Assembly (NCBI GenBank): GCA_017454265.1
Contig: JAFTDJ010000027.1
Span: forward strand, 1-51,629
Origin: Bacteroidales bacterium
GTDB lineage: Bacteria; Bacteroidota; Bacteroidia; Bacteroidales; UBA932
Direction of reading: 5' to 3'
DNA: 51,629 bases
The translations under genes and the position numbers were made by a program. This document shows, in pieces, positions 12,679 through 50,942 of this stretch; within the stretch, counting starts at the first letter, position 1, and the number at the start of each line of letters is the position of its first letter. The notes under the pieces are model-generated. The model saw nothing but the letters and a program-made list of their open reading frames with translations. It was not told where the DNA came from and did no database searches.

Positions 12679-12685
12679 CGAAGTT

Positions 12686-12707: not shown

Positions 12708-12709
12708 GC

Positions 12710-12717: not shown

Positions 12718-12721
12718 CATT

Positions 12722-15599: not shown

Positions 15600-15612
15600 C
15601 AGCTTCGGAGAA

Positions 15613-18284: not shown

Positions 18285-18303
18285 TTGGCAAACACAGTGC
18301 CAA
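18285..18303. promoter_or_regulatory. Palindrome TTGGCA-N7-TGCCAA upstream of GH92
   Basis: A perfect 6-bp inverted repeat with a 7-bp spacer lies 8 bp before the GH92 -7 box, in the place of the -33 element. It could be a repressor or activator site. On both strands it also shows GG-N10-GC, the core of a sigma-54 promoter (minus strand TTGGCACTGTGTTTGC). No sigma-54 activator is in the window. Confidence 0.45.
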
Positions 18304-18311
18304 ACTTTGAT

Positions 18312-18319
18312 TATCTTTG
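18312..18319 (+). promoter_or_regulatory. -7 box of the GH92 gene
   Basis: TATCTTTG is a perfect match ending 7 nt before the ATG at 18327, predicting a leader of only a few nucleotides or none. It decides for this start over an upstream in-frame ATG at 18285, which lies before the box. Confidence 0.7.
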
Positions 18320-18326
18320 CGCTGAT

Positions 18327-20972: not shown

Positions 20973-23900
20973 ATGAGAAACAAAAATTTGTTGATGCTTC
21001 TGTCAATGTCTATCCTGTTGGTATTCAACACGGCCGGCGTCTATGCACAGAACAGGATTCGTGTGCAGGGCGTAGTCAAGGACACCAAAGGCGAGACTCT
21101 GGTGGGAGCAATGGTGCTCGTGAAAGGCACCCAGAACGGAGCGATGACGGATGCAGGAGGCAGCTACATCCTCACAGGAGTTGCATCCAACGCCACTCTC
21201 ATCGCCAGCCTGATCGGCTATGAGGAGCAGGAAGTCAAAGTTGACGGCCGTTCCAGCATAGACTTCATCCTCAAGGACGACAACCTCGTGCTTGACGAGG
21301 CCGTGGCAATCGGTTACGGCAATCAGCGCAAGGTAACCCTCACGGGATCCGTAACCAGCACCACCGGTGAGGAACTGGTGAAAAACTCCTCCGTCAATCT
21401 TTCCCAGGGTCTTGCAGGACGTATGTCCGGCGTCATCGTGAACAACCGTTCCGGAGAGCCCGGGCGCGACGACGCCGTGATGTTCATCCGCGGACGCAGT
21501 ACCCTTGGCGACAACAGCCCCCTCATCATCATAGACGGCGTGCAGGGCCGTGGCGATGAGTTCGGACGGCTCACCGGAGACGAAATCGAGAGCGTCACCG
21601 TATTGAAAGATGCCTCTGCCGCCATTTACGGTGCCCGTTCGGCAAACGGAGTTATCCTCGTCACCACCAAACGCGGCAAGTACAACGAGGCTCCGAAGGT
21701 GAACTTCACCTACGACCTCGGCCTGCAGAGCCCTACCCGTATGGTCAAGCTCTCGGACGCCGTGCTCTACACCACCGCATACAACAAGAGTCTTGCAATC
21801 TCCGGCGGCGCCCCCGTGTACAACGACACCCAGGTGCAGCATTACATAGACCAGGACGACCCTATATCGTATCCCAATACAGACTGGTTCAAGGAAATCA
21901 TCAAGCCCGTTTCAGCCCAGCACAAGTACGGCGTGAGCATCAACGGCGGATCCGAGAGGGCTGCATACTTCGTGCAGTTCAACGGCCAGTACCAGGACGG
22001 TATCTACTACAAGTCCGCAACCAACTACAGCCAGTATAACCTGCGTTCCAACCTGGACATCCAGGTGACCAAGCGCCTCAAGCTCGGCGTGGACGTCAAC
22101 GCCCGCCAGCAGCACAAGAACTACTCGGCGTTCCCCTCCGACTCCTACGGTATCTTCTACATTGCAATGCGCATGAGGCCTACGGGAGCCGCTTATTATC
22201 CCAACGGACTGCTTCGCGGAGGCACCAACCCCGCAGTGCTGGTACAGGACCTCACCGGTTACGACCGCACCACCATCAATACAATCAACACCACCTTCTC
22301 CCTCAACTGGGACCTCTCCGCAATTACGAAGGGCCTCTCCGTCAACGGACACCTGGCCTATGACCTCGTGAGCAGGTTCAAGAAGAACTGGCAGCAGAAC
22401 TGGAACTACTGGTCCTACGACGAGATCACCGAGATTTTCGAGGAGCGCTCCAACTCCTACTGGCCCACTCCTGTTCTTCACGAGTACCAGACACATACGC
22501 ACAATACGGCAATCAACGCCAATATCAACTACGACCGCGACTTCAACGGCCACCACGTAACCGCTCTCGCCGGCTTTGAGCAGAACTCCTACAGGCTCGA
22601 CTACTTTACTGCCGGCATCAACAACTACGCTTCCGATATCCTTGACGAACTTTTCGCGGGAACTGCGGACAAGAGCTGGTACACCATCAACGGCTACGCC
22701 CGTGAAACCGCAAGGCGTTCGTTCTTCGGCCGTGTGGGTTACGACTACAAGAGCAAGTACCTCTTCCAGGCCCTCGTGCGTTTCGACGGTTCCGAGAACT
22801 TCCCCGCAGGCAAGCGCTGGGGTATCTTCCCCGGTGTGTCGGTGGGCTGGCGTCTTTCCGAGGAGCCTTTCATCAAGGACAACGCCCCGGCAATCACCAA
22901 CCTCAAGATCCGCGCCTCCTATGGCGAGCAGGGGAACGACCAGATCGACCCGTTCCAGTACATGACAACTTACGCCTACACGTCCGGCTACTCCTACAAG
23001 ACGATGTTCGACGACAAGGAGGTCAACTTCATCATTCCCGGCACCATCCCCAATCCCAACGTTACATGGGAGGTGGCGCGCACCTGGAATATCGGTATCG
23101 ACAGTAATATCAACAACGGTATGTTCGGATGGGAACTGGAGGCCTTCTACACCAGGCGTTCCAACATTCTCTGCACCCGCAACGCATCCATTCCTTACTA
23201 CACCGGCCTCACCAACAATCTCCCCGACGAGAACATCGGTATCGTGAACAACAAGGGCGTCGAACTCCAGCTCAACCACGAGAACCGCGTGCTCAACGGA
23301 GAGCTCCGCTACCGTGTGACCGGCAACTTCATGTTCGCAAAGAACACCATCGAGTACATGGACGAGACTCCATGGCCTGAAGGTCATGAATACATGAAAC
23401 TGGAAGGCCAGCCTATGGGCTCCGCCCTGTATTACAAGGTGGGCGGCATCAACAATACCGAGGATGACCTCAAGAACCACACCCAGATGAGCGGCGCCAC
23501 CCTCGGCGACTTCTGGTTTGAGGATCTCGACGGAGACGGTTCCATCACCAATCTGGACCGCTACCGTCTCGGTCTTACTTCTGTGCCCCAGATAGTCTTC
23601 GGCCTCACCTTCGACGCCACCTGGAAAAACTTCGACTTCTCGATGCTCCTCCAGGGACAGGCCCTCGCCAGGTACTACTATTCACCCCAGATGGACCCTG
23701 TGTCCGGCAACCTCGACTGGTATGCCGCGACCAACGCCTGGACCCTCGACAACCGTGAATCCAATTATCCAAGGATCGGTTCCACCGTCAGCAACGGCGG
23801 CGTCAACAGGGCCGACTACTATTCCCGCAATGCCGCCTTCCTCCGTCTTAAGAACATCGAGATAGGCTACACCCTTCCGTTCAGCAAGATAGCTCCCAAG

Positions 23901-24053
23901 CTCGGAGTCAAGGGACTGCGTTTCTACATTGCCGGTTACAACCTCCTCACTTTCTCGGAACTCAAGTACGTGGATCCTGAAACCTCCGACGAAAGCTACC
24001 AGACCTACCCGCAGATGCGTATTGTGAACACCGGTGTCAAACTTTCATTCTAA
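20973..24053 (+). CDS. SusC-like TonB-dependent outer-membrane transporter
   Basis: The 1,026-residue protein has a signal peptide (to VYAQ, residue 26). A carboxypeptidase-regulatory-like domain (about 27-112) starts RVQGVVKDTKGETLVGAMV, followed by the plug (GSVTSTTGEELVKN, then SNGVILVTTKRGK-type end near 235) and a 22-strand barrel ending with GVKLSF. It would import oligomers released by the lipoproteins encoded downstream, energised by TonB. No extra N-terminal anti-sigma-interacting (STN) domain is visible, so regulation by an ECF sigma/anti-sigma pair is unlikely. It is followed after 6 bp by susD. Confidence 0.96.
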   Translation: MRNKNLLMLLSMSILLVFNTAGVYAQNRIRVQGVVKDTKGETLVGAMVLVKGTQNGAMTDAGGSYILTGVASNATLIASLIGYEEQEVKVDGRSSIDFILKDDNLVLDEAVAIGYGNQRKVTLTGSVTSTTGEELVKNSSVNLSQGLAGRMSGVIVNNRSGEPGRDDAVMFIRGRSTLGDNSPLIIIDGVQGRGDEFGRLTGDEIESVTVLKDASAAIYGARSANGVILVTTKRGKYNEAPKVNFTYDLGLQSPTRMVKLSDAVLYTTAYNKSLAISGGAPVYNDTQVQHYIDQDDPISYPNTDWFKEIIKPVSAQHKYGVSINGGSERAAYFVQFNGQYQDGIYYKSATNYSQYNLRSNLDIQVTKRLKLGVDVNARQQHKNYSAFPSDSYGIFYIAMRMRPTGAAYYPNGLLRGGTNPAVLVQDLTGYDRTTINTINTTFSLNWDLSAITKGLSVNGHLAYDLVSRFKKNWQQNWNYWSYDEITEIFEERSNSYWPTPVLHEYQTHTHNTAINANINYDRDFNGHHVTALAGFEQNSYRLDYFTAGINNYASDILDELFAGTADKSWYTINGYARETARRSFFGRVGYDYKSKYLFQALVRFDGSENFPAGKRWGIFPGVSVGWRLSEEPFIKDNAPAITNLKIRASYGEQGNDQIDPFQYMTTYAYTSGYSYKTMFDDKEVNFIIPGTIPNPNVTWEVARTWNIGIDSNINNGMFGWELEAFYTRRSNILCTRNASIPYYTGLTNNLPDENIGIVNNKGVELQLNHENRVLNGELRYRVTGNFMFAKNTIEYMDETPWPEGHEYMKLEGQPMGSALYYKVGGINNTEDDLKNHTQMSGATLGDFWFEDLDGDGSITNLDRYRLGLTSVPQIVFGLTFDATWKNFDFSMLLQGQALARYYYSPQMDPVSGNLDWYAATNAWTLDNRESNYPRIGSTVSNGGVNRADYYSRNAAFLRLKNIEIGYTLPFSKIAPKLGVKGLRFYIAGYNLLTFSELKYVDPETSDESYQTYPQMRIVNTGVKLSF

Positions 24054-24059
24054 GGGCTT

Positions 24060-26042
24060 ATGAAAAAAATTTATTTACTCATATTTGCCGCACTTGCCCT
24101 GAGCGCCTGCAACGACAAGTTCCTGGACAAGACCCCTCTCGACAAGCTGAGCGAGGACGCTGTGTTCAACAGCGATGCATTGGCTGAATCCTATATCAAC
24201 GCCCTCTACACCGTTCTGCCCGATCCTTATCAGGAAGGCAACGTGGGCTGTATTACAGACGAAGGTTATTTCCGCTACGGCGGTACCTCAACCCGTTATA
24301 TTGCATCCGGTTATATGGATCCGGACAACGTGATGTACATCAAGGAAGGCGGTCAGGCGCATAATACCCGCACCACCATCCTCAACATCTGGAACCGTAC
24401 CTACGAGTGGATCTACAGGATGAACTACTTCCTGCAGTACATAGACGAGAAGGGTTCCAACATGAGCGAGTCAGCCAAGGCCCGCCTCACGGGGGAGGTT
24501 TACTTCCTCCGCGCATGGTCCTACTTCCTGCTCATACAGCGTTATGGCGGCGTGCCGGTCATCACCAAGCCCCACAACCTCGATGACGACTTCACGGTGG
24601 ACCGTTCGAATTTCGACGACTGCGTGGATTTCATACTCGGAGACCTTGCCAAGGCCGAGCAGCTCCTTCCTGCCAAGGAAGATGGCGTGAAAGGCAGGGT
24701 GAACAAGGACACCGTCCTCGCACTCAGGTGCCGCCTTACCCTCATAGCGGCATCCAAGCTGTTCAACGATCCCGAGAATCCTGAAGGAGGCATCTTCCGC
24801 GGACAGTACGACATGAAGAAGTGGGAGCGCGCCTTTGATGCGGCTAAAAAGATTGTTGACCGCGCCGACGTGGACGGAGCATACATGCTCGACGACACCT
24901 ACGACGGCATATGGAAAGACGTGAACTCTCCCGAGCTCATCTGGGCCAAGTACTTCATCGCAACTTCCGATGCCAACGACAACTACACCAAGAAGGCGCA
25001 GTTGCTGTACACCGTAGAGTATTTTAACGGCTGGGAGGCTTTCCATCCCACCCAGGCTGCGCAGATCGACTTCGAGATGAAGAACGGCAAGAAATGGTTC
25101 GAGGATGGCTCCGGCTACGACGAGAGGCACCCTTACCGCAACCGCGACCCCCGCTTCTACTATTGCATCGCAGCCCCCTTCAGCATGTACGGCAGCACCG
25201 ACAAGAACGGCGCCGTGAAGGAAGATGAGCTGTTGCTCTACTATCTGTACGACGGCATGACCCGCGACGACTTCCTGGTGAGCAAGAACCCCAAGGAACC
25301 CGGCTTCTCCTCCAGGGCGAAGCACCAGACTTCGGGCAACCACGGCGGCCTCGAGCTCTACAAGTGGTACCTGCCTACGGAGTACATTTCCGAGTCCCAG
25401 ACCGGCAGCAAACTGTATCCTTGGTTCCGTCTTGCAGAAATGTACCTCAACTATGCGGAGTGTGCATATATGCTGGGCAAGGAAGATATCTGCCGCGAAT
25501 ACATCAACAAGATCCGCCAGCGTCCCGACGTGCAGATGCCCCTCGTGACGGAGTCCGGCACCAACTTATGGGACCGCCTGGTCAACGAAAGGCGGGTCGA
25601 GCTCTATGCGGAGACGTTCCGCTATTTCGACCTGCGCCGCTGGAAGATGGCCGACCTGTATGAGAACGTGCCGCTGGCTTCCGCAAGGGTCATGGTGCTC
25701 AAGAACGGCAACCAGATGGATACCGTCTACCGTATCGCCCGCAAGTACGACGAAACGCGCAACAACACGAACTACTACTGGGCCAACACCGAAGCCAGCA
25801 AGACTTACATGTACTCCGGTTATGCTACGGACGCCCGTTACAACAAGCCCATCGAGTATATCATCACCTACAAGTGGCTCGGAAAGGAATACACCATCGA
25901 CTACGGTGACTGTATCCTCAACCAGAATCCTACTCCCCGTTATTTCCCCGAGGACGGACGCAACTACCTGATGCCCATTCCCCGCAACGAAATAACCAAG
26001 AGTGAAGGAAAACTCGTCCAGAACCCCGGATATCCCAACTAA
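24060..26042 (+). CDS. SusD/RagB-family surface glycan-binding lipoprotein
   Basis: The 660-residue lipoprotein has lipobox LSAC (Cys17) and the usual mature start NDKFLDKTPLDKLSEDAVFNS split over residues 18-38. RagB/SusD TPR helices and RLTGEVYFLRAWSYFLL (about 136-152) follow. The C-terminal NERRVELYAETFRYFDLRRWKMADL block ends in MPIPRNEITKSEGKLVQNPGY. It caps the SusC barrel and captures ligand. At 660 residues it is longer than many SusD proteins, with extra sequence around 240-440. Confidence 0.96.
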   Translation: MKKIYLLIFAALALSACNDKFLDKTPLDKLSEDAVFNSDALAESYINALYTVLPDPYQEGNVGCITDEGYFRYGGTSTRYIASGYMDPDNVMYIKEGGQAHNTRTTILNIWNRTYEWIYRMNYFLQYIDEKGSNMSESAKARLTGEVYFLRAWSYFLLIQRYGGVPVITKPHNLDDDFTVDRSNFDDCVDFILGDLAKAEQLLPAKEDGVKGRVNKDTVLALRCRLTLIAASKLFNDPENPEGGIFRGQYDMKKWERAFDAAKKIVDRADVDGAYMLDDTYDGIWKDVNSPELIWAKYFIATSDANDNYTKKAQLLYTVEYFNGWEAFHPTQAAQIDFEMKNGKKWFEDGSGYDERHPYRNRDPRFYYCIAAPFSMYGSTDKNGAVKEDELLLYYLYDGMTRDDFLVSKNPKEPGFSSRAKHQTSGNHGGLELYKWYLPTEYISESQTGSKLYPWFRLAEMYLNYAECAYMLGKEDICREYINKIRQRPDVQMPLVTESGTNLWDRLVNERRVELYAETFRYFDLRRWKMADLYENVPLASARVMVLKNGNQMDTVYRIARKYDETRNNTNYYWANTEASKTYMYSGYATDARYNKPIEYIITYKWLGKEYTIDYGDCILNQNPTPRYFPEDGRNYLMPIPRNEITKSEGKLVQNPGYPN

Positions 26043-26045
26043 GGT

Positions 26046-27386
26046 ATGAAATTCAGAATTCTGGCAATAGCGGCACTGCTTGCCGTCTCCTGCAACGGGG
26101 GCGGCAAGCTGGTGTGCAATTATAATGCGGCCGACATTTCCACCACGCCCGACGAGCACACCATGCTCGCAGGCTTCGCCGCACGCAATGACCTTTCCAC
26201 CGGGCTTCACCTTCCCCTCTACACGCACTGCCTGGTGCTCGGAGACGGTACAGACCGGGTCTGCATAATTTCCAACGACCTTATGGAGATTCAGCCCGAC
26301 CTCAGTCTGGAGTGGCGCAAAGAGATCGCACAGAAGAGCGGACTTCCTCTGGACCGTATTTTCATGCATTGCATCCATACCCATTCGGCGCCCCGTAACG
26401 GCGGCTGGAGGGCGGAACCCGGCGGAAGCAATTATTCCCACAAGGAGCGCCTTCACAAGGTGCTGGTGGAGAATGCGGTAAAGACCATCACCGACGAGGG
26501 CGCCTTCCGCCCCTTCAGGATGGAAGTGGGCAAGGCGCAGACCTCGATCAACGGAAACCGCTGCGAGATAACCGGTCCGGTTGACCGGGATGTGTATGTG
26601 GTGCGTTTCCTGGAACTCAGCGGCGAGCCCATTGTTTCCGTGATGAATCTTGCCTGCCATCCGGTCTGCATGGGGCCCAGGAGCCTTCTGGTATCATCCG
26701 ACTATCCCGGCGTTGCAGGCAAAATCCTCAGGGAGGCCTGGGGAGGTGACGTGTTCCAGCTTACCGGAGCCGCGGGCAATATGGATCCGGAGAGGGGACC
26801 GAAGATGGTGGAGTATGCCGAGGAGTGCGGACGCAGTCTTGCAGACTCCATCCTCAGGATAAAGTTCGAGCCCGTCCGCGGGAAAGGGGAGTTCAAGGTG
26901 GTGAACGACACCGTTTCGCTGCCCTTCCGCATTGCGGAAGTCACTCCTGAGGCCGTAGAGGCGCACGCCGCGGAGATTTCCCGGTGGGATAAAACCGTAT
27001 CTGCCAGCTGGAAGGAAGACGTGCAGGGATGGAAGGAACTCATACTCAGCCGCTTCCCCGAAGGCAAGGTGAAGAATACCCTCGACTTTACCATGGGAGC
27101 AGTGAATGTGAACGGCATAGTCTTCTTCTTTACCCAGGGCGAGCCTTTCTGCGAATACCAGATGCAGGCGAGGGAGCATTTCCAGGGCCGTACAGTGATA
27201 TTCGCAGGTTATACCAACGGCCAGAATTCATATCTCCCTTCCGCCCATGCTTACGAATACCGCAAGGGCTATGAATACGAGATAGACCAGATGCATATTT
27301 ACATCAAGGCCCCGTACCCTCTGAGCGATACCATGCCGGAGGCTTTCGCGGGAGCGATAGACAAAACTATTGAACAAGCTTTATGA
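26046..27386 (+). CDS. Neutral-ceramidase-like (NEUT/ALK N-terminal domain) lipoprotein
   Basis: The 446-residue lipoprotein has lipobox AVSC (Cys16). Family marks are the zinc-site MHCIHTHSAPRNGG near residue 102, NLACHPVCMG near 204, and a C-terminal YTNGQNSYLPSAHAYEYRKGYE pattern split over residues 385-406. The segment that holds the Ser nucleophile in true neutral ceramidases (GDVSPN) reads AAGNMDPER here, so amide hydrolysis of ceramide is doubtful. Such proteins are frequent in Bacteroidota glycan loci without known function. It follows susD by 3 bp and overlaps the first GH20 gene by ATGA. Confidence 0.82.
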   Translation: MKFRILAIAALLAVSCNGGGKLVCNYNAADISTTPDEHTMLAGFAARNDLSTGLHLPLYTHCLVLGDGTDRVCIISNDLMEIQPDLSLEWRKEIAQKSGLPLDRIFMHCIHTHSAPRNGGWRAEPGGSNYSHKERLHKVLVENAVKTITDEGAFRPFRMEVGKAQTSINGNRCEITGPVDRDVYVVRFLELSGEPIVSVMNLACHPVCMGPRSLLVSSDYPGVAGKILREAWGGDVFQLTGAAGNMDPERGPKMVEYAEECGRSLADSILRIKFEPVRGKGEFKVVNDTVSLPFRIAEVTPEAVEAHAAEISRWDKTVSASWKEDVQGWKELILSRFPEGKVKNTLDFTMGAVNVNGIVFFFTQGEPFCEYQMQAREHFQGRTVIFAGYTNGQNSYLPSAHAYEYRKGYEYEIDQMHIYIKAPYPLSDTMPEAFAGAIDKTIEQAL

Positions 27387-29188
27387 TACTGTCTTTTCTG
27401 ATTGCAAGCCTTCTTGTCGTAGGCGCTCCGGTTTTGAGCCCTCCGGTGTACGACATAGTGCCCACCCCCAGGAGCCTCGTACCTGCCGAGGGCAGCTTCG
27501 TACTCCGGAAAACCACCGGCCTTGCCGTGGAGGATGCCGCATTTTGCGAGATAGCGGATGATTTCCGCACACAGGTGCAGACGGCTACCGGCCTTATGCT
27601 GCAGGGCTCCGGGAATTACATCACATTGCGCAAGGCCCCAGGCTATGCCAAGGAGGCCTACAAGCTGGTGGTGAGCCCTTCTGCCGTGCTGGTGGAAGCC
27701 AGTGAGGTGAATGGGGCTTTCTACGGACTCCAGACCCTGCTGCAGCTGTTCCCGGCAGAAATATATGCAGACAAGCTGCAGAAAAAAGTCAAGTGGACTG
27801 CCCCTTGCTGCACCATAGAAGACGAACCGGAATTCGGCTACCGCGGCTTCCTCTTCGACAGCGGACGCTACTTCTTCCCCAAGGAAGAGGTTATGAAGTT
27901 CATTGACCTTATGGCCATGCACAAGCAGAACATGTTCCACTGGCATCTCACGGAAGACCAGGGCTGGCGTATTCAGATAGACAAGTATCCCAAACTGACG
28001 GAAGTCGGTGCATGGCGTAAGGAAACCGCATTCCACAGCTGGATAGGCGACGGCAAGCCGCATGGCGGATTCTATACCAAAGACGACATCCGCGAGGTTG
28101 TGGAATATGCCCGCAGGCGCTGCGTAACCGTAATCCCCGAGGTTGAGATCCCCGGCCACAGCACTGCCGCCATCACCGCATATCCCGAGTTCAGCTGCTT
28201 CCCCGAGCGCCATTACGAAGTGGAGACCCGCTGGGGAATATGGAAGAATCTCTATGCTCCCACGGCGCAAACCTTCCAGTTCCTGGAGGATGTATTTACC
28301 GAACTCTTCGAGCTTTTCCCGTCGCCATACTATCATATCGGCGGCGATGAGGCTCCCAAAGACGTGTATCGCGAGAGCCGGTATTGCCAGGACCTGATGA
28401 AGGTGCTCGGAATAGAAAGCGAGGAGGAACTCCAGACCTTCTTCGTGAAGAGGATGGGCGATTTCCTCCGCAAACACGGAAAGACTGTAATCGGCTGGGA
28501 TGAGATTCTGGACGGGGGCGCCCTGGACGATCCCATAGCTATGTCTTACCGTGGTCACGCCCCGGCAGCCCGTGGCATCCGTCGCGGTATCCGCGTGGTA
28601 CTTACTCCCAACCGGTGGTGCTATCTGGACAACGCCCAGGACGACCAGGGAGAAGACGTGGCCCAGGAAATCTTCATGCCGCTGAAGAAGGTGTATAACT
28701 ACTATCCTGCGGTAGATTCCATCCCCGACCTGAGCGAGAAGTACATCATAGGATACGAGACCTGTCTCTGGACAGAGTACGTGCCGGATAATGCAAAAGC
28801 CGAGTTTATGGCCTTCCCTCGCAACGTGGCAGCTTCCGAGGTTGCCTGGACTTCCCGCCCCAACAAAGACTGGGAAAGCTTCCGCCATCGTATGCCAAAG
28901 GTGCTCAGGCGCCTGGACATGAAGCACGTGGGCTACTGCCCGGTGTATTACGACGTCATTTTCGATTACGACCGCCGCCTGCCCTTCCCCAAACCTATGA
29001 ACCTTCAGCTCGATTATCCCGACGGAGTGGTGTATTACACGCTTGACGGCAGCGAGCCCACCGTCAGGTCTCTCCGCTACGACGGTACCCCCTTCACGGT
29101 TGACAAGGACGCCGTTATCAAGGCCCGCGGCTTCGGGAAAGACGGCAAGCCTCTCGGAAAGACGGTGACAAAACAGTTCTTCAAATGA
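27383..29188 (+). CDS. GH20 beta-N-acetylhexosaminidase, copy 1
   Basis: The 601-residue protein has a signal peptide (MILSFLIASLLVVGAPVLS). A GH20b-type N-terminal alpha/beta domain (about 25-145) precedes the TIM barrel from GYRGFLFDSGR. MFHWHLTEDQGWRI and the catalytic HIGGDEAPK pair (Asp322-Glu323) mark substrate-assisted catalysis through the 2-acetamido group. A C-terminal chitobiase-like beta domain has YYTLDGSEPTV near 552. It removes terminal beta-linked GlcNAc/GalNAc. It is paralogous to the next gene and shares a 35-bp identical stretch (27935-27969 with 29776-29810). Confidence 0.95.
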   Translation: MILSFLIASLLVVGAPVLSPPVYDIVPTPRSLVPAEGSFVLRKTTGLAVEDAAFCEIADDFRTQVQTATGLMLQGSGNYITLRKAPGYAKEAYKLVVSPSAVLVEASEVNGAFYGLQTLLQLFPAEIYADKLQKKVKWTAPCCTIEDEPEFGYRGFLFDSGRYFFPKEEVMKFIDLMAMHKQNMFHWHLTEDQGWRIQIDKYPKLTEVGAWRKETAFHSWIGDGKPHGGFYTKDDIREVVEYARRRCVTVIPEVEIPGHSTAAITAYPEFSCFPERHYEVETRWGIWKNLYAPTAQTFQFLEDVFTELFELFPSPYYHIGGDEAPKDVYRESRYCQDLMKVLGIESEEELQTFFVKRMGDFLRKHGKTVIGWDEILDGGALDDPIAMSYRGHAPAARGIRRGIRVVLTPNRWCYLDNAQDDQGEDVAQEIFMPLKKVYNYYPAVDSIPDLSEKYIIGYETCLWTEYVPDNAKAEFMAFPRNVAASEVAWTSRPNKDWESFRHRMPKVLRRLDMKHVGYCPVYYDVIFDYDRRLPFPKPMNLQLDYPDGVVYYTLDGSEPTVRSLRYDGTPFTVDKDAVIKARGFGKDGKPLGKTVTKQFFK

Positions 29189-31026: not shown

Positions 31027-31031
31027 TAAAA

Positions 31032-33184: not shown

Positions 33185-33219
33185 ACACACACTTCAACCA
33201 TTTATTAACACAAAACACA

Positions 33220-38421: not shown

Positions 38422-38435
38422 TCCGTACTTTTTGG

Positions 38436-38461
38436 CATCGGGGGCCTGACCGCCCCCGGTG
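38436..38461 (+). terminator. Strong hairpin between giant lipoprotein and transglutaminase genes
   Basis: A 10-bp GC-rich stem (38436-38445 with 38452-38461, one G.U pair) encloses a 6-nt loop. No T-run follows. It fills the largest gap (63 bp) in the operon and could reduce downstream expression or protect the upstream mRNA end. Confidence 0.6.
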
Positions 38462-38484
38462 CTCCTATTCATATTCTGAAAATT

Positions 38485-39546: not shown

Positions 39547-39549
39547 TAT

Positions 39550-43595: not shown

Positions 43596-44926
43596 CTTTT
43601 ACGCCCTGGACTCTCCTTATCGATGTCGGTATCATCTCAGTGCTGCTGCTTTTGGGTAAGTTGCTGCGTTCCAAGGTGCGTATCATACAAAAGTTCTTCA
43701 TCCCTCCCAGCCTGCTTGCAGGGCTTACCGCCCTTGTGCTGGGCCCGGAAGTCCTGGGTTGGCTGCCGTTGTCCGGAAACCTCGGAACTTATGCAGGAAT
43801 ACTCATAGCGCTGGTATTCAGTTGCATCCCCCTTACCTCCGCCGGCAGCAAGGGCTCGGACGGAACTTCCCGGATTGGCCGCATGTGGGCCTATTCCCAG
43901 GCCGGGCTGCTGCTGCAGTGGGCCCTGGGAGGTGCGCTCGGGCTGTGGGCCCTCAGCCGTATATGGCCGGTGAACCCGGCTATGGGCCTTTCCATGCCCG
44001 CCGGATTCTGCGGAGGACACGGTACAGCCGCTGCAATAGGCGAATCATTTGCCGCTTATGGGGTTGAGGAGATGCAGTCCCTGGCTATGACGGCCGCTAC
44101 GGTGGGCATCATTGCGTCCGTCATCATCGGTATGTGGCTGATTTCCTGGGGCGCAGCCCGCGGTAAAACCAAATATATTTGCGCTTTCGAAAATCTGTCG
44201 CCCGAGCTCCGCACCGGTATTCTGCCTCCCGACAAACGTAAAAGCATGGGTCTGGCGTCGTTCTCTGCCATATCCCTTGATTCCATGAGCTTCAACTTCG
44301 CGGTTGTGGCTATGATAGCCCTGGGCGGATACGGACTTGCAAGGCTTATAGCCCTCATATGGCCCGCCCTCATGCTGCCGGTGTTCAGCTGTGCATTCAT
44401 AGTTGGAATTCTCGTCAAATGGGTGTTCGGCAAGATAAAGGTGGAAGAGCACCTTTCCAAGCCGATAATAGGGCACCTCAGCGGTGCTTTTACAGACTAT
44501 CTGGTGGCATTTGGAGTTGCGTCCATTCGCCTTGAGGTCGTCGGCCGGTTCTGGCTGCCCCTGACTATACTCCTTACTGTAGGCCTGCTTTGCACCCTGT
44601 TCTATGTGTTCTGGGTTGGAGCCCGTATCCACAAGACAGCTCCCTTTGAGAAGAGCATATTCACCTGGGGCTGGTTTACCGGCACGATGGCCATGGGAAT
44701 CGCCCTGCTTCGCATCACAGACCCCGACTCCAAGAGCGGCACGCTGGACGATTACGCTTTCGCATACCTGTATATAGCACCGGTGGAGATCGCCCTCGTG
44801 AGCTTATCGCCGTTGGCTTTCACCTACGGCCTCGGATGGCTTTTTGTGGGTATTTGCGCCCTGCTTGGACTGGGTATAGTCGGTTTTTCCGTTGCCCGCG
44901 GGTGGCTGCGGCGTTCCAAAAGTTGA
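43592..44926 (+). CDS. GltS-family sodium/glutamate symporter
   Basis: The 444-residue protein has about 10-12 membrane helices in two inverted halves. Family marks are KFFIPPSLLAGL near residue 30, GFCGGHGTAAAIGESFA near 135, and GHLSGAFTDYLVAFGVASI near 295. GltS takes up L-glutamate with Na+; the substrate could be another acidic amino acid. It sits between a secreted amidase and a secreted peptidase fusion, so it may recover glutamate from wall peptides. The start overlaps the upstream stop (ATGA). Confidence 0.9.
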   Translation: MTFTPWTLLIDVGIISVLLLLGKLLRSKVRIIQKFFIPPSLLAGLTALVLGPEVLGWLPLSGNLGTYAGILIALVFSCIPLTSAGSKGSDGTSRIGRMWAYSQAGLLLQWALGGALGLWALSRIWPVNPAMGLSMPAGFCGGHGTAAAIGESFAAYGVEEMQSLAMTAATVGIIASVIIGMWLISWGAARGKTKYICAFENLSPELRTGILPPDKRKSMGLASFSAISLDSMSFNFAVVAMIALGGYGLARLIALIWPALMLPVFSCAFIVGILVKWVFGKIKVEEHLSKPIIGHLSGAFTDYLVAFGVASIRLEVVGRFWLPLTILLTVGLLCTLFYVFWVGARIHKTAPFEKSIFTWGWFTGTMAMGIALLRITDPDSKSGTLDDYAFAYLYIAPVEIALVSLSPLAFTYGLGWLFVGICALLGLGIVGFSVARGWLRRSKS

Positions 44927-44927
44927 T

Positions 44928-47615
44928 ATGAAAAGGTTTTGCATCATATTCCTGCTCACATTATCGTTAGCAGCTTTGGCCTCCGGCGGGCGGATAAAGA
45001 AAACTCCGGCTTCAGGCCTGAAGTATCTGGATACTCATTTCCACCTCTACGATTCGCTCCAGAAGCGAATCTGGAATTATGCCGAGACAGGTTATACCGA
45101 ATTTCGGAGCGCTGAACAATGGGCCTCGTTCCTGGAGAGCCAGGGATTCAGCGTGGAGAGGGGAGTGGCCGGTATTCCTACCGCTTTCGTGGCTACGTTC
45201 GGCAGCGGTTCTCCGGTAATCGGCGTTCTTGCAGAATACGATGCACTGCCCGGAATGTCTCAGGATACCGTTCCTTACCGCAAGCCCCTCCTGGAAGGCG
45301 CCAACGGCCACGGATGCGGCCATAATCTGCTTGGAACAGGTTCCGTGGCGGGTGCCGTCGCAATATCCAAATGGCTCTCGGAGGGCCATGCCGGCACCGT
45401 GAAGCTCTTTGGCTGCCCGGCGGAGGAAGGCGGTGGCGGCAAGGCCTACATGATGAGGGAAAAGGTATTCGACGGCACCGATGCAATGCTCGACTGGCAT
45501 CCTGACACCCGGAATACCGTGAACCGCACGTCGGGCCTGGCCAACGTACAGGTGCAGTTCAATTTCTACGGGCGCTCTTCGCACGCCTCCGGTGCGCCGG
45601 AAGAAGGCCGTTCGGCGCTGGATGCGGTGGAGTCGCTGGATTATATGATGAACCTGATGCGTGAGCACGTGCCCCAGACCACTCGCATCCATTATGTGAT
45701 AACCAACGGCGGGAAGGCCCCCAACGTGGTGCCGGACCAGGCGAGCGTGAAGTACTACCTCCGCAGTCCGTCCCGCAAGGTTGTGGGCGAGCTGCTTGAA
45801 CGCGCCCTGGATGCTGCACGCGGAGCGGCTATGGGAACCGGGACCACTATGGATTACGAACTGCTGTCCGGCAACTACGAGCGCCTGCCCAACGATGCCA
45901 TGGCAGATCTTGTAGGCCGCAGTCTCGAGAAGACAGGCGGCCTCAGTTTGAATGAGCGGGAACTGGAGTTCGCCCGCGCGGTGGCGGCGGAGTCGGGTGT
46001 GTCTGCGGATCTTATCGACGGCCTTTCCGTCGTGGTTCCGCCTTCCGAGCAGGGGTACGAGGCATATGTTTCCAGCGATGTTGGCAATGTTACCTGGGCC
46101 GTTCCTACGGGGAGTTTCCGTTATGCCTGTTTTGCACCGGGCGGCGTGGGCCACAGTTGGCAGCAGGTCGCCAGCGGCGGCACAACCATCGGTACCAAAG
46201 GCGCACTGGGCGCCGCGCGCGTCATATATCTTTCTGCATATGAGCTGTTTACCGATGCAGGACTGCTGGACAAGGTGCGTTCCGAGTTTATAGCCCGCAG
46301 GGGAGAGAACTTCCGCTTCGAGCCCCTTATGGGTAACCGCAGGCCTCCTTTCATGGAGAAGGCGGAACTTTCTGCCCCCATGCCTGCCGTTGGAGATATC
46401 CGCAGCAATGCCCGCAGAACCTGGAAGGGAGACCTCGAACGATGGGACGGGATGGTAAGCCTGCAGACGGAGGCCCGAATGCGTCTTTTGAAGGCAGGAC
46501 GCAAGTTCCCTGCCGACACCACCGGCCTCGATATCTTCCTCCGTTCGTCGGGAATCACCAACCAGCGTGCCTCCGGTCGTTGCTGGTTCTTTGCTACTGC
46601 AAATGTGCTGCGTGGCGAGAACCGTTTCTCGCAGAGTTACGCCTACTTCTTCGATTTGCTGGAGAAGGCGAACCTGTTCCTCGTACGTATGTGGGATGCC
46701 CGCAAGGAGCCGCTCGACAGCCGTCTCAACGAGGCCCTGCTGCGCCGGCCCACTTGGGACGGGGGACAGTTTATGAACGCCGTTTATCTGATAGACAAGT
46801 ACGGACTCGTGCCGGCGGAGGTGATGGAAGACAGCTTCGACGCGCAGCATTCCGCGGACCTGCTGCGCGAGCTGCGCTCCCTTCTGCGGAGCTACGGCCT
46901 GCGTATGCGGCAGACTTCCGAGCCAGAGGACCTGCGGCTGCAAGCGCTTTCGGACGTTTACGGCCTGCTCTGTTCCACCCTGGGTACGCCTCCTGCAGGG
47001 TTTGAGTGGGAGGGCAAGAAGTGGACGCCTGCCGCCTGGCGCGACTCGCTTGGACTGGGCGGTCTTGCCAGGCACTATGCCGTGCTCATGAACGACCCTT
47101 CGCGCCCGTACTACAAAATGTACAGGGTGTGCGAGTCGCGCAGCGCAGCGGATGCTCCAGAGTGGACCTTCCTCAACATGCCGGCAGAAGAGCTCGAAGG
47201 CATAGGGCTTGCGTCGCTCCGCGGAGGCGACCGTTTCTACTTCACCGCAGACACTTACAAAGACTTTATGGAGGCGCAGGGGGTATATGACCTTGCCCTG
47301 TCCTGTCCCGGCTCCGCCGAGGGCGGGTCCTGGTATATGGATAAGGAGGAACTCTTCCTGAGTCGCGACGTCAGCTCGGCCCACGCTATGGCCATGTGCG
47401 GAGTAAAGCTCTCGGACGGATCCGGTGTGGAGCGTTGGGTGGCCGAGAACAGCTTCGGGGAACAACGGGGCCGCGGAGGCTACGTAACCATGCGGGGCGA
47501 CTGGTGGCGGCGCTATATGTTCCGTATGGCTGTGGACCGCAAGTATCTGCCCGCCTCCGTCTCCGCCCTGTTGGACCAGACCCCGGAGCCTATTCCCTGG
47601 TGGAACCTTTATTGA
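44928..47615 (+). CDS. Fusion of M20 (AbgB-like) amidohydrolase and C1B aminopeptidase C
   Basis: The 895-residue protein has a signal peptide (ending ALASG, about 20). Residues about 30-450 are an M20 metallopeptidase of the p-aminobenzoyl-glutamate hydrolase (AbgB) type: VLAEYDALPGMSQ, GHGCGHNLLGTG, EEGGGGKAYMM and SSHASGAPEEGRSALDA. Residues about 510-895 are a bleomycin-hydrolase/PepC cysteine peptidase with Cys552 (GRCWFFA), His819 (SAHAMAM) and Asn841 (ENSFG). The reading frame is continuous, so the two halves are one polypeptide. It is presumably periplasmic, unlike the usual cytosolic PepC. It likely trims N-acyl-glutamate and peptide products. The ATG at 44928 is 1 bp after the gltS stop. 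Confidence 0.88.
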   Translation: MKRFCIIFLLTLSLAALASGGRIKKTPASGLKYLDTHFHLYDSLQKRIWNYAETGYTEFRSAEQWASFLESQGFSVERGVAGIPTAFVATFGSGSPVIGVLAEYDALPGMSQDTVPYRKPLLEGANGHGCGHNLLGTGSVAGAVAISKWLSEGHAGTVKLFGCPAEEGGGGKAYMMREKVFDGTDAMLDWHPDTRNTVNRTSGLANVQVQFNFYGRSSHASGAPEEGRSALDAVESLDYMMNLMREHVPQTTRIHYVITNGGKAPNVVPDQASVKYYLRSPSRKVVGELLERALDAARGAAMGTGTTMDYELLSGNYERLPNDAMADLVGRSLEKTGGLSLNERELEFARAVAAESGVSADLIDGLSVVVPPSEQGYEAYVSSDVGNVTWAVPTGSFRYACFAPGGVGHSWQQVASGGTTIGTKGALGAARVIYLSAYELFTDAGLLDKVRSEFIARRGENFRFEPLMGNRRPPFMEKAELSAPMPAVGDIRSNARRTWKGDLERWDGMVSLQTEARMRLLKAGRKFPADTTGLDIFLRSSGITNQRASGRCWFFATANVLRGENRFSQSYAYFFDLLEKANLFLVRMWDARKEPLDSRLNEALLRRPTWDGGQFMNAVYLIDKYGLVPAEVMEDSFDAQHSADLLRELRSLLRSYGLRMRQTSEPEDLRLQALSDVYGLLCSTLGTPPAGFEWEGKKWTPAAWRDSLGLGGLARHYAVLMNDPSRPYYKMYRVCESRSAADAPEWTFLNMPAEELEGIGLASLRGGDRFYFTADTYKDFMEAQGVYDLALSCPGSAEGGSWYMDKEELFLSRDVSSAHAMAMCGVKLSDGSGVERWVAENSFGEQRGRGGYVTMRGDWWRRYMFRMAVDRKYLPASVSALLDQTPEPIPWWNLY

Positions 47616-47627
47616 CCCTGAGATTTT

Positions 47628-48587
47628 ATGAAAAAGTTTTTGACCGTTTTGGTTTTTGCAGCTGCGCTGGCTGCCTGTAAACCTGCCGAATCCCGCTATG
47701 CCAGCCGGGCCGAGGCCATTGCCGCACAGATTCACGATCCCGACTCTAAATATGTGGTTGTAACATGTCACCGCGGAGACTGGCGTAATTTCCCTGAGAA
47801 CTCCCTGCTGGCCATAGAGAGCATCATCAGGATGGGGGCCGACATTATGGAGCTTGACCTGAAGATGACAAAGGACTCAGTGCTGGTTCTCAGCCACGAC
47901 GCCACCGTTACCCGCTGCACGAATTTCAGCAGCGTGTTCAAGGGCGAGCCGGGCAAGAGCGCCAGGGTGAGCGACCTCACGCTTGCTGAAATAAAGCGCC
48001 TGAGTTTGAAAAGGGCCCACAATATAGTTATAGATACGGTTCATATGCCCACTCTGGAGGAAGCCCTGCGCTGCTGTAAAGACCGTATCTGCGTGAATGT
48101 AGACCAAGGGTACGAATTCTACGACGAGGTGCTCGCCATATCCGAGAAGCTCGGCGTCACGGACCAGATACTTATAAAGGGCAAAAAGCCCATTGAGGTG
48201 GTTGCGGCACATGAAGCTGCCTACGAGCACAATATGATGTATATGCCTATCGTGGACATCCAGAAGCCCAAGGGTATAGAACTGTTCAATTCCTATATGG
48301 AGCAGGGCGTGGTGCCCCTGGCATATGAAGTGTGCTGGCAGCGTAACGACGGAGCCTTTGAGGAAGCCTGCGGGAAGATATTGGAGCAGGGTTCCAAGAT
48401 TTGGGTGAATACCATCTGGGCGACGCTTTGCGGGGGAGACGGCAACGACGACGACGCCGCCTATCTGGCGGCGGATCCGGGCACGGTGTATCAGCAGTAC
48501 CTCGACAAAGGTGTATCCATGATCCAGACGGACAGGCCGGAACTTCTCATCGGCTGGCTCACAAAAATTGGGCGCCATAGTTTGTAG
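47628..48587 (+). CDS. Glycerophosphodiester phosphodiesterase lipoprotein
   Basis: The 319-residue lipoprotein has lipobox LAAC (Cys17). GDPD motifs are in order: CHRGDWRNFPENSLLAIE near residue 47, MELDLKMTKDSVLVLSHD near 78, and a C-terminal MIQTDRPELLI. The family hydrolyses glycerophosphodiesters to sn-glycerol-3-phosphate and an alcohol, using His, Glu and Asp with a divalent metal. The next gene encodes a G3P-type transporter 3 bp away. Phospholipid headgroups or glycerophosphate wall polymers are possible substrates. Confidence 0.93.
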   Translation: MKKFLTVLVFAAALAACKPAESRYASRAEAIAAQIHDPDSKYVVVTCHRGDWRNFPENSLLAIESIIRMGADIMELDLKMTKDSVLVLSHDATVTRCTNFSSVFKGEPGKSARVSDLTLAEIKRLSLKRAHNIVIDTVHMPTLEEALRCCKDRICVNVDQGYEFYDEVLAISEKLGVTDQILIKGKKPIEVVAAHEAAYEHNMMYMPIVDIQKPKGIELFNSYMEQGVVPLAYEVCWQRNDGAFEEACGKILEQGSKIWVNTIWATLCGGDGNDDDAAYLAADPGTVYQQYLDKGVSMIQTDRPELLIGWLTKIGRHSL

Positions 48588-48590
48588 ATT

Positions 48591-49964
48591 ATGGGAATGC
48601 TTGATTTCTACCGCATCAGCCCCGCGTCTCCGGACAAAGTAGCGGCTGCAGATGTGACGAAGGTTTACAAACGCCGCCGGATGCAGACCTTCCTGGCTGC
48701 GACCTTCGGCTATGCACTCTACTATGTATGCCGCCTCTCTATGGGCGTAATGAAGCAGCCCATCATAGATGCCGGCCTGCTCAACGCAACGCAGCTTGGT
48801 ATCATAGGCGCCTGTCTTTACTGGACTTATGCAGTGGGCAAGCTGGTGAACGGTTTCCTCGCCGACAGTGCCAACATCAAGCGCTTCATGTGTACCGGCA
48901 TCATCTTGTCCGTGGCTATGAACTTCATCATGGGCGTGCTCGGTGTCCGGGCTCTCGAGGGCACGATAGCCAACGGCGCCCTGTTTATCTGTTTCTGCGT
49001 GTTCTGGGCCATTAACGGTTTTGCGCAGTCGATGGGCGCCCCCGCAAGCATCGTTTCGCTTTCCAGGTGGTTCCCTCTGAGCATACGCGGTACTTACTAT
49101 GGCATCTTCAGCGCGTCGCACAATATAGGCGAGGGGCTTTCCTTCATTTTCGTGGGCTCGATAGTTGCCGCTTTGGGATGGAAGTGGGGCTTCTTCGGCG
49201 CCGCCCTGGCAGGTGTGCTGGGAGTCGTGCTTGTGCTGCTGTTCTTCCACGACAACCCCGAGAGCAAGGGGCTTCCGCCCATCGAGGTGCTCTCCGGCGA
49301 AAAGACCCTTGCGCAGCTGGACAAGGATGACGCACGCAAAGAGACCAGGCGCATGCAGCGTGCTGTCATCAAGAATCCCGGAGTCTGGATTCTTGCACTT
49401 TCAAGCGCATTTATGTATATGAGCCGCTACGCTATCAATGAGTGGGGAACCATATTCCTGCAGGAGGCCAAGGGTTATGACCTTGCAGGCGCCGCCGCCA
49501 TCATAGGAGTGAATCCTGTCTTTGGCATCATAGGTACGGTCGTTTCCGGATGGCTGTCCGATGTGCTGTTCAAGGGCGACCGCAAGTATCCCGCCTTAGT
49601 TGCCGGCCTGCTGGAGGCCGTCGCCCTGGCGCTGTTCCTTTTCGGCGGTCCTGCAAAATGGGTAAACATTCTTGCGATGATACTGTTCGGCATAGCCATC
49701 GGCGTGCTTATCAGTTTCCTCGGCGGCCTCATGGCGGTAGACCTGGTGCCCCGCAAGGCGAGCGGCGCCGCCCTTGGTATCGTGGGTATAGCTTCTTATG
49801 CGGCAGCCGGTCTGCAGAATATCGTTACCGGGCTTTTGCTGGACAACCACATGGTGGGCGGAGTTCACGATTTTACCTACGTGAGCTGGTTCTGGCTGGG
49901 TTCTGCCGTGATTTCATTCCTCCTCCCCATTCTTAACTGGAAACGTAAACCACAAGTAATATAA
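48591..49964 (+). CDS. OPA-family MFS transporter, glycerol-3-phosphate type
   Basis: The 457-residue protein has 12 predicted helices and organophosphate:Pi antiporter marks: GYALYYVCRLSMGVMKQPI near residue 42, AVGKLVNGFLADSANIKRF and SMGAPASIVSLSRWFP. ATTENTION to specificity: GlpT and UhpC/UhpT are hard to separate by eye, but the adjacent phosphodiesterase favours glycerol-3-phosphate. It would exchange the released G3P for phosphate at the inner membrane. Confidence 0.87.
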   Translation: MGMLDFYRISPASPDKVAAADVTKVYKRRRMQTFLAATFGYALYYVCRLSMGVMKQPIIDAGLLNATQLGIIGACLYWTYAVGKLVNGFLADSANIKRFMCTGIILSVAMNFIMGVLGVRALEGTIANGALFICFCVFWAINGFAQSMGAPASIVSLSRWFPLSIRGTYYGIFSASHNIGEGLSFIFVGSIVAALGWKWGFFGAALAGVLGVVLVLLFFHDNPESKGLPPIEVLSGEKTLAQLDKDDARKETRRMQRAVIKNPGVWILALSSAFMYMSRYAINEWGTIFLQEAKGYDLAGAAAIIGVNPVFGIIGTVVSGWLSDVLFKGDRKYPALVAGLLEAVALALFLFGGPAKWVNILAMILFGIAIGVLISFLGGLMAVDLVPRKASGAALGIVGIASYAAAGLQNIVTGLLLDNHMVGGVHDFTYVSWFWLGSAVISFLLPILNWKRKPQVI

Positions 49965-49970
49965 ACTGTT

Positions 49971-50942
49971 ATGAATATGAATCTTAAGTTTTTTGCGGCT
50001 TTTGCCGCCGTGGCGGTTTTATCTGCCCCTGCATTTGCCCAACAGTCTGCCCGCCGCAACAATGAGGACTCCAGGCGTCAGACCCAGAAAGTCGAAAGGC
50101 AGCAGACCAGAGTGGACAAGAACCAGAAGCCCACTAATATCACCAATCAGCCGGTAACGGACCAGAAGGTCCGCCAGGCCCAAAGCAGCAATCCTTACGG
50201 CAACGGCAACCGGCCTCCGACCGGGGGAGTCGGCAACCGGCCTCCGACCGGGGGAGTCGGCAATCAGCCTCCGACCGGGAATCGTCCGAATACCGGTGGC
50301 AATCAGCCGCCGACCGGGGGAGTCGGCAATCAGCCTCCGACCGGGAATCGTCCGAATACCGGTGGTAGTCAGCCGCCGAGCGGAGGCAATCAGCCTTCCG
50401 GAGGCTATGGCAACCAGCCGCCGGTGGGTAACCAGCCGCCGAGCGGAAACCGCCCTCCAACAGGTAATTATCCTCCTTCGGAAGGCTACGGCAACCGCCC
50501 TCCAATGCCTCCGGCCATCGATTACAGCCGCTCTCAGATATTCGAACGTACCAATGCCTCCAACATAGTGGTTTACACCACTTTCCGTACAAAGGAAGAG
50601 GCCTACGACTATATCGACCGACTGCTCTTCGTAAAGTCTTACACCGTGAACTCTTACGGAAACAATTATAATTGGCTCCAAACCGACGTGGCCTTTATTC
50701 CTACTCCCTTTGATTGGACCAACCCTATGACTCACAATCAGTTCCGTATGAAGTTCTACATTACCAGGAGTTTTGGCGAGATAAGAGTGAGCATTACTGC
50801 CGACTGGCGAGAGTCCTACCTTTCAAACGGATTCTCCAGTCTTCGTTTCCAGCCCAGTGACCGCTACAGCACCTATTACGCCTGGAACGTACTGGAAGAT
50901 ATGGCCGCCAGCATTCCCCATACTCGTGTAGCCTATAGGTAG
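49971..50942 (+). CDS. Secreted Pro/Gly/Asn-repeat protein of unknown function
   Basis: The 323-residue protein has a signal peptide (VLSAPAFAQ, about 24) and a charged Arg/Gln-rich segment to about residue 70. A repeat region (about 77-180) is built from GNRPPTGGV and GNQPPTGNRPNTG units. A C-terminal domain of about 140 residues starts YSRSQIFERTNASNIVVY and is rich in aromatic residues; it is not recognised. The repeats may be a wall-spanning or mucin-like linker. It is the last gene of the 30-kb block, 6 bp after the transporter, and is followed by a 15-bp hairpin. Confidence 0.8.
   Translation: MNMNLKFFAAFAAVAVLSAPAFAQQSARRNNEDSRRQTQKVERQQTRVDKNQKPTNITNQPVTDQKVRQAQSSNPYGNGNRPPTGGVGNRPPTGGVGNQPPTGNRPNTGGNQPPTGGVGNQPPTGNRPNTGGSQPPSGGNQPSGGYGNQPPVGNQPPSGNRPPTGNYPPSEGYGNRPPMPPAIDYSRSQIFERTNASNIVVYTTFRTKEEAYDYIDRLLFVKSYTVNSYGNNYNWLQTDVAFIPTPFDWTNPMTHNQFRMKFYITRSFGEIRVSITADWRESYLSNGFSSLRFQPSDRYSTYYAWNVLEDMAASIPHTRVAYR
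50205..50365 (+). repeat. Tandem repeats encoding Pro/Gly units
   Basis: Two exact 27-bp units (50205-50231 and 50232-50258) are followed by a 66-bp period whose 45-bp core is identical at 50255-50299 and 50321-50365. All units keep frame (multiples of 3). Near-identity at the DNA level implies recent expansion and likely length variation between strains. More degenerate units continue to about 50510. Confidence 0.9.

Follow-up and report, generated by a model that had tools for sequence, protein, structure and literature searches.

A SusCD-type locus of a Bacteroidales bacterium with a transglutaminase lipoprotein akin to a methanogen-virus protein: a possible route to the use of archaeal pseudomurein

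Here we describe a run of 18 genes from a Bacteroidales bacterium (assembly GCA_017454265.1, contig JAFTDJ010000027.1), which forms a SusCD-type locus around a lipoprotein combining a pseudomurein-binding repeat (PMBR) with a transglutaminase-fold domain. The window, i.e. the whole stretch of DNA analysed, is one entire contig of 51,629 bases (G000:C4; G, C and L are our handles for genomes, contigs and loci) and belongs to a draft genome of 1.94 Mb in 70 contigs, 75.65% complete. According to the list of open reading frames (ORFs), the 18 genes lie on the plus strand at 20973..50942, with gaps of at most 63 bases or small overlaps. A first-pass annotation of this DNA had described a 30-kb co-directional block, and all genes it listed are present there on the plus strand; its list had overlooked the ceramidase-like gene 26046..27386. 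Families were assigned with Pfam and NCBIfam profile scans, in which the cut-offs are the model thresholds. The genes are as follows (MFS, major facilitator superfamily; Ntn, N-terminal nucleophile).

20973..24053, plus strand: SusC-type TonB-dependent outer-membrane transporter (TIGR04056 2.3e-259; Pfam Plug 4.7e-15)
24060..26042, plus strand: SusD-type lipoprotein (PF07980 4e-46)
26046..27386, plus strand: neutral-ceramidase-like amidase (PF04734 1.8e-10; PDB neutral ceramidase 4wgk 6.9e-6)
27383..29188, plus strand: GH20 hexosaminidase family protein a (PF00728 2.3e-105)
29185..31026, plus strand: GH20 hexosaminidase family protein b (PF00728 1.4e-119)
31032..31859, plus strand: divergent MurQ-type SIS enzyme, MurQ2 (NF003915 1.4e-84, over the cut-off)
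31856..33184, plus strand: lipoprotein with Lamin-Tail-like domain and GHL/DUF4015-like barrel (PF00932 3.7e-8, 0.1 bit under the cut-off; PF13200 0.0021)
33220..38421, plus strand: 1733-aa repeat lipoprotein, PMBR-like N-terminus, repeated units and BACON (BACON 5.9e-11)
38485..39546, plus strand: PMBR and transglutaminase-fold lipoprotein, 353 aa, candidate pseudomurein endoisopeptidase (Transglut_core 1.3e-16; triad C276, H310, D325)
39550..40431, plus strand: second GHL/DUF4015 lipoprotein, GH18-like barrel, candidate glycosidase (PF13200 1.9e-7)
40428..41279, plus strand: sugar kinase of the MurK/NagK group with altered lactyl pocket (PDB 1zxo/MurK relatives)
41272..42465, plus strand: NagP/GluP-type sugar MFS importer (NF046060 3.6e-79; TIGR01272 over the cut-off)
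42462..43595, plus strand: C45-type Ntn amidase/peptidase, signal peptide followed by CCTTA (NF040521 1.3e-11, below the cut-off)
43592..44926, plus strand: GltS-type Na+/glutamate symporter (PF03616 1.3e-18)
44892..47615, plus strand: fusion of M20 amidohydrolase and C1B (bleomycin hydrolase/PepC-like) peptidase (TIGR01891 3.2e-71, over the cut-off; PF03051 2e-70)
47628..48587, plus strand: GDPD lipoprotein (PF03009 1.8e-23)
48591..49964, plus strand: GlpT/UhpC-type organophosphate MFS (PF07690 9.1e-43; TIGR00881 1.6e-66)
49971..50942, plus strand: Pro/Gly/Asn-rich protein with signal peptide, in no Pfam family by the family scan

The transglutaminase lipoprotein carries one PMBR (PF09373, 9.8e-5), which reaches 22.7 bits by hmmscan (cut-off 24.9) and 25.6 bits, over the cut-off, in a genome search passed by none of 14 control genomes. 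At E<=0.01 all 36 homologues show Transglut_core and 20 of them a PMBR (best 1.7e-6). Residues C276, H310 and D325 are invariant in 36/36 and align with the Cys, His and Asp of 3isr, giving the enzyme the Cys-His-Asp triad on a transglutaminase fold that characterizes peptidase family C71. In Foldseek comparisons PeiP ranks first both in PDB (5.2e-10, 332 columns) and in BFVD (7.4e-10).

By tblastn the enzyme matched nine of 50,697 phage records at E<=1. The best match, in two records, was Methanobacterium virus Drs3 (1e-20, 45.1% over 112 residues), whose protein AXN53416.1 is annotated as a pseudomurein-binding repeat protein and aligns with the window enzyme from the N-terminal repeats to the last residues. 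Methanobacteriales virus vir080 (two records) followed at 1e-4 and the other five records at 0.02 to 0.5; only methanogen viruses reach 1e-4. For plasmid records the best score among the matches listed (20 of 38) was 56 bits versus 99 for Drs3, and a viral contig collection searched with the transglutaminase alignment, the Drs3 protein and both together gave no relative. The Drs3 protein combines PMBR (2.7e-17), Transglut_core (5.6e-14) and C71 (3.9e-4, just below the cut-off), and by these matches appears itself to bridge the three families. The transglutaminase model matches a further Drs3 protein too, the 1403-aa A0A385AHB8 with the name Prominin (BFVD, E 1.6e-3), which perhaps carries a second domain of this type in the virus.

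Drs3 scored 120.5 bits with a hidden Markov model (HMM) of the operon catalytic domain. Among 26 other transglutaminases of bacteria (family search, 23; plasmids, three) the top score was 45.8; vir080 reached 38.4, three other methanogen-virus Pei proteins 15-20, and PeiW and PeiP just 2-4 bits. Mean catalytic-domain identity was 41.9% between Drs3 and the operon enzymes, 18.9% between Drs3 and the others and 23.7% between operon enzymes and the others. A 69-domain tree groups the operon enzymes with seven methanogen-virus proteins on one side of a branch supported at 97/93. Because this tree gave a long-branch warning, a second one was made without most of the long rows, and there Drs3 again falls on the operon side (97/90), although two rows (Drs3 and one from a plasmid) keep long branches and support for the exact place of Drs3 inside that side is weak (83/82). 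Judged by these comparisons, the closest relative found beyond the enzyme's own group is a methanogen-virus protein, "closest" referring to phage and plasmid records and sampled genomes of the phylum, a set without archaeal genomes. Since such an enzyme stands beside sugar-uptake genes, the uncultured rumen and gut Bacteroidales that carry the locus may feed on methanogen walls.

The distribution of the locus was followed in samples of the family, order and phylum. Of 249 genomes sampled from the same family, 7 have a strong orthologue of the transglutaminase (E<=1e-50), the window counted in; the 294 sampled from the rest of the order gave none at E<=1e-10, and the 394 from elsewhere in the phylum none at E<=1e-15. 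In the six family-sample relatives most neighbours of the transglutaminase gene are the same genes as in the window, and SusC and SusD accompany the operon genes in 6/6, in G387 on a second contig. A second scan, of titled genomes, gave 40 loci around the transglutaminase, all assigned to Bacteroidales, Bacteroidia or Candidatus Cryptobacteroides. Their titles name rumen, reticulum or omasum in 11 cases and bear the RUG label, which we take to mean rumen, in 13; the rest point to reindeer, goat cecum or horse feces or give no recognisable source. These loci are not independent: L057 and L077 come from a single contig, L078, L079 and L084 are apparently near-copies of one another, and six loci (L046, L076, L078, L082, L083, L085) seem to overlap with the family-sample relatives.

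When the counts are limited to loci whose 10-kb flanks leave room for a given gene, the repeat lipoprotein is found in 36/37, the Lamin-Tail/GHL lipoprotein in 28/30, MurQ2 in 27/29, the two GH20 genes in 28/29 and 27/29, the kinase in 35/38, the importer in 31/36 and the second GHL gene in 27/38. The Ntn, GltS and M20/C1B genes are present in 22, 21 and 20 of 33 loci, respectively, and GDPD in 0/32; SusC, SusD and the ceramidase-like gene fall mostly outside these flanks, which also stop before the place of the last gene. Five family-sample relatives have at least 17 kb downstream: Ntn, GltS and M20/C1B occur in one of them (G387), and GDPD, the GlpT-type MFS and the last gene in none. Gene order is largely the same across the 40 loci, with rearrangements in L051, L057, L072 and L083, and L063 has just two of the genes; 10 of the 88 unlabelled plus-strand ORFs were scanned with Pfam. 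From the per-gene counts, the conserved core spans about 20973-42465, from SusC to the sugar importer, and the peptide genes up to 47615 are a frequent extension. As most genes recur around the transglutaminase in the 40 loci, the block is far from a chance assembly. The first-pass annotation had read it as wall-directed with use of glycerophosphate: the co-inherited core with its wall-directed parts stands. Three genes lie outside the unit, namely GDPD (0/32 loci, 0/5 relatives), the G3P-type transporter (0/5 relatives) and the last gene (0/5 relatives), so the glycerophosphate part falls.

Adjacent susC and susD genes with glycan-degrading enzymes, conserved as a unit, make this a SusCD locus, and its role as a utilisation locus for a cross-linked wall glycopeptide is well supported. 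The ceramidase-like domain is fused to GH20 in some relatives (L038 and, below the cut-off, L127). The Lamin-Tail/GHL lipoprotein (31856-33184) aligns with the second GHL protein (39550-40431), and the AF2 model of the latter (pLDDT 91) has Cwp19, PgaB, GH18 and SleL as closest folds.

The long repeat lipoprotein (33220-38421) was compared by means of an HMM made from the N-termini of the operon transglutaminases. On whole sequences this model found PeiW (2e-5), Drs3 (0.004) and PeiP (0.2). Among 42 long repeat lipoproteins it matched 34 at domain E<0.01, the window copy at 2.8e-8, the best shuffled or reversed control being 0.4. The N-terminus of the repeat lipoprotein is thus homologous to the PMBR-bearing N-terminus of the transglutaminase. 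The Pfam PMBR that had been expected in it was absent from the protein and its 18 homologues (0/19 at E<=1). PMBRs are described as joined to the catalytic domain in PeiW and PeiP (PMC2989375). The repeat lipoprotein is a candidate surface wall-binding protein. At L047:14-2833, a 939-aa protein with a Lamin-Tail match only (below the cut-off) lies directly before the transglutaminase gene, in the repeat lipoprotein's expected place.

MurQ2 belongs to its family by NF003915 (283.7 bits, cut-off 168), and stays below TIGR00274 (232.3 bits, cut-off 302) and NF009222 (243.9 bits, cut-off 255). The window genome has a second MurQ at G000:C64, 45% identical, which adjoins a second kinase; this pair carries canonical motifs, and second murQ-murK pairs exist also in G387, G526, G405, G325 and G343. 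Against a small set of eight canonical MurQ rows (six from these genomes and two from PDB) 17 positions set the operon enzymes apart: at each, one residue is common to at least 28 of the 29 operon MurQs and differs from that of at least seven of the eight, and 14 of these positions show no exception. The motifs GTSGR and E(C/I)PPT, common to the eight canonical rows and presumably part of the MurQ active site, are not preserved in MurQ2: the changes S70G (in GTSG) and P83N (in E(C/I)PPT) are present in 29/29 operon and 5/5 sister-locus MurQs and in 0/8 canonical ones. The five sister-locus enzymes carry nearly all 17 changes. Two glutamates, which we take to be catalytic, are kept in the operon rows shown.

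The kinase differs in a similar way. In Tannerella forsythia MurK, residues S133-P134-L135 together with T94 are reported to make room for the lactyl ether of N-acetylmuramic acid (MurNAc), and K1058, a MurK paralogue and also a MurNAc kinase, has Arg and Ala at 133 and 134 (PMC10465942). Kinases of the second pairs have Arg133 and Thr or Ser at 94 in 6/6, a small comparison set, and the operon kinases have Asp133 and Met94 in 36/36, as do the sister kinases (5/5); the operon kinase thus lacks both the Ser/Arg at 133 and the Thr/Ser at 94. An acid at the lactyl pocket would speak against MurNAc as the kinase substrate. The salvage of MurNAc by MurQ and MurK, which had been assumed for this locus, is therefore not upheld by the 17 differences of MurQ2 and the Asp133 of all 36 kinases. 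That MurQ2 might instead cut a 3-O-linked sugar off a hexosamine-6-phosphate by MurQ-like elimination chemistry is an improbable guess.

MurQ2-type genes occur also in other SusCD loci without a strong transglutaminase, so the sugar on which MurQ2 acts is not linked specifically to that enzyme. Such sister loci in G325, G343, G485 and G358 hold a large GH20 gene, a kinase, an Ntn-containing gene and, where called, an importer; Pfam scans covered mainly G485. In its locus G485:C35 (L127-L128) we found a ceramidase-like (below the cut-off)/GH20/GH20 protein, MurQ2, kinase, importer, an Ntn-C1B fusion, a GH18-GHL10 fusion and an N-formylglutamate-amidohydrolase-like gene. The loci of G431 and G297 combine ceramidase-like and GH20 genes with a kinase and an importer.

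Several known systems share parts of this arrangement. PeiW and PeiP (peptidase C71; phages psiM100 and psiM2) likewise have a PMBR-type N-terminus and a C-terminal transglutaminase-fold Cys-His-Asp domain, but are phage lysins, whereas the operon enzyme is a predicted bacterial lipoprotein; the Drs3 protein has the same architecture, but is viral, without a lipoprotein signal and with three called PMBRs versus one. PeiR of the Methanobrevibacter ruminantium prophage phi-mru is described as a PMBR-bearing cysteine peptidase that inhibits rumen methanogens, but has a C39-type catalytic domain and two PMBRs (Pfam E 0.11) weaker than that of the operon enzyme (PMC6189367). Group III adhesin-like proteins of M. 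smithii and M. stadtmanae, set beside the enzyme here by their description only, also place PMBR next to a C-terminal transglutaminase domain (PMC11532034), yet are archaeal surface proteins with archaeal big domains. The MurTKQ operon of T. forsythia similarly unites a sugar transporter, a MurK-type kinase and a MurQ-type enzyme (PMC10465942); its kinase has S133/T94 versus D133/M94 here, where the genes lie within a SusCD locus and a separate pair exists in the genome. Like other SusCD loci of Bacteroidota, the present one has a SusC/SusD pair together with lipoproteins, glycosidases and an importer for sugar in the inner membrane, all in a single run; what sets it apart is the transglutaminase, the PMBR-type proteins and, in many of the loci, the Ntn, M20/C1B and GltS genes.

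Starting from the direct results, namely gene content, conservation, methanogen-virus affinity, PMBR homology, predicted fold and the changes in kinase and MurQ, we infer the substrate, the protein locations and the catalytic steps from predicted activities. The long repeat lipoprotein and SusD would keep wall fragments on the cell surface, where the PMBR-transglutaminase lipoprotein would open (iso)peptide cross-links, like PeiW and PeiP. Cleavage of the amino-sugar backbone may fall to the two GHL barrels, and removal of terminal N-acetylhexosamine to the two GH20 enzymes, after which the fragments would enter via SusC. In loci that have them, the Ntn amidase, the M20 amidohydrolase and the C1B peptidase could break down an all-L peptide, with glutamate taken up via GltS. 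An amino sugar would be brought in by the MFS importer; the sugar processed by the MurK-like kinase and the MurQ-like enzyme would be one other than MurNAc.

The substrate of such a pathway is most likely archaeal pseudomurein, to which we assign a probability of about 0.55. Several observations weigh against this assignment. The enzyme appears built like PeiP, yet by sequence lies outside C71: the catalytic model PF12386 matches none of the 36 homologues at E<=0.01 and not the window protein at E<=1, and the same model finds PeiW (6e-89), PeiP (6.3e-96), M. smithii virus MSTV1 (1.4e-9) and Drs3 at the value given above. The PeiW-like transglutaminase proposed by the first-pass annotation is upheld by the fold (PeiP first in Foldseek) and by the kinship with Drs3, and not by a C71 sequence match. 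Called PMBRs in one and the same scan number four in PeiW, four in PeiP, three in Drs3 and one here. The pseudomurein-binding (PMB) domain is reported to bind pseudomurein only when it has three motifs; with two motifs it bound nothing but lysozyme-treated bacterial spheroplasts, which the three-motif and PeiW forms bound as well, murein particles were not bound by the three-motif form, and GlcNAc (N-acetylglucosamine), common to both polymers, is what the authors presume to be recognised (PMC3124540). As the one called repeat falls short of three motifs, binding cannot decide the substrate. Pseudomurein contains talosaminuronic acid where murein has MurNAc, and it has beta-1,3 bonds and amino acids exclusively of the L form (PMC4592898); a MurNAc pathway would therefore favour murein. 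The authors of the kinase study hold that MurNAc binding is not decidable from sequence alone (PMC10465942), and this caveat together with the single called repeat lowers our confidence in pseudomurein.

The main rival is accordingly the harvesting of murein, in which the enzyme would cut L-Ala-epsilon-Lys cross-bridges of Gram-positive bacteria, GHL and GH20 enzymes would open the glycan, and MurK and MurQ would turn MurNAc into GlcNAc-6-P. It draws on the family assignment of MurQ2, on a kinase of the MurK/NagK group, on GHL folds near Cwp19 and SleL, on the spheroplast binding just cited and on the T. forsythia MurTKQ operon as a known route for MurNAc (PMC10465942). The weight of MurQ and MurK in its favour lessens, however, because a separate pair with canonical motifs exists elsewhere in the genome and Asp occupies the lactyl pocket in all 36 operon kinases, with MurQ2 changed at 17 positions. 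Moreover, Amidase_2/3, NlpC/P60 and GH23/24/25/73 models matched nothing in family scans of the window genes and chosen others, which left the unit without a match to classical families of murein amidases, NlpC/P60 enzymes or lysozymes, and the nearest outside relative found for the enzyme is a methanogen-virus protein; we regard murein harvesting as unlikely. The union of MurQ/MurK-type genes and PMBR/Pei-like parts in one locus, and the GlcNAc presumed as common ligand of PMB domains (PMC3124540), would also suit a general scavenger that takes up murein and pseudomurein fragments from gut lysis and leaves living cells alone. This is rather improbable, given a kinase pocket that disfavours MurNAc and the same lack of murein-specific amidase or lysozyme families. 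Farthest from the data is a locus for host or dietary glycoproteins, in which a generic bacterial transglutaminase-like peptidase would open gamma-Glu-Lys isopeptide cross-links: neither PMBR matches, nor methanogen-virus affinity, nor a repeat lipoprotein with a PMBR-like region would be expected there, and we consider it very improbable.

Returning to pseudomurein, the fuller proposal is that these Bacteroidales eat methanogen walls by means of an archaeal-wall locus with an endoisopeptidase exchanged with methanogens or their viruses, candidate pseudomurein-backbone glycosidases, and a MurK and MurQ re-tooled for a non-MurNAc sugar; taken as a whole it is tentative, with somewhat less than an even chance. 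We know of no precedent for a utilisation locus directed at an archaeal wall polymer, and among the papers listed by searches of open full-text literature, which leaves most subscription journals out of scope, no title or abstract opening reports the use of pseudomurein by Bacteroidales. Much livestock methane comes from pseudomurein-walled methanogens. If the proposal is true, a bacterial locus that digests and uses the methanogen wall would be a new trophic link within the rumen, and would offer wall-opening enzymes and candidate pseudomurein-backbone glycosidases from gut bacteria; the methanogen-virus lysin PeiR has already been studied as a methane inhibitor (PMC6189367). The question of archaeal-wall recycling in the gut becomes testable with a few purified proteins.

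Some minor observations concern the surroundings of these loci. A GH92 family gene (18285-20879) ends 93 bases upstream of susC; it is not counted as a member of the unit, as no counterpart was found beside the unit in the six relatives or the 40 loci, most of whose flanks stop short of that place, with one weak piece in G473. Contig JAFRSW010000022.1 (L057, L077) has two transglutaminase genes about 18 kb apart and more SusC/SusD genes nearby. A serpin gene (L059:17701-19011) lies within the operon after a second GHL copy, and in L060 an ATPase_2 gene (12076-13332) stands directly behind the second GHL gene. The left part of the window (1074-18125) holds ordinary genes: RNA polymerase alpha, H+-pyrophosphatase, a PfkB kinase, a sulfatase, a pair of DHODB-Fe-S and Fer4_20/pyridine-nucleotide oxidoreductases, a Cache-HAMP-SpoIIE protein, a FeoA-FeoB fusion and, at 10522-12576, a fusion of 3-dehydroquinase and EPSP synthase.

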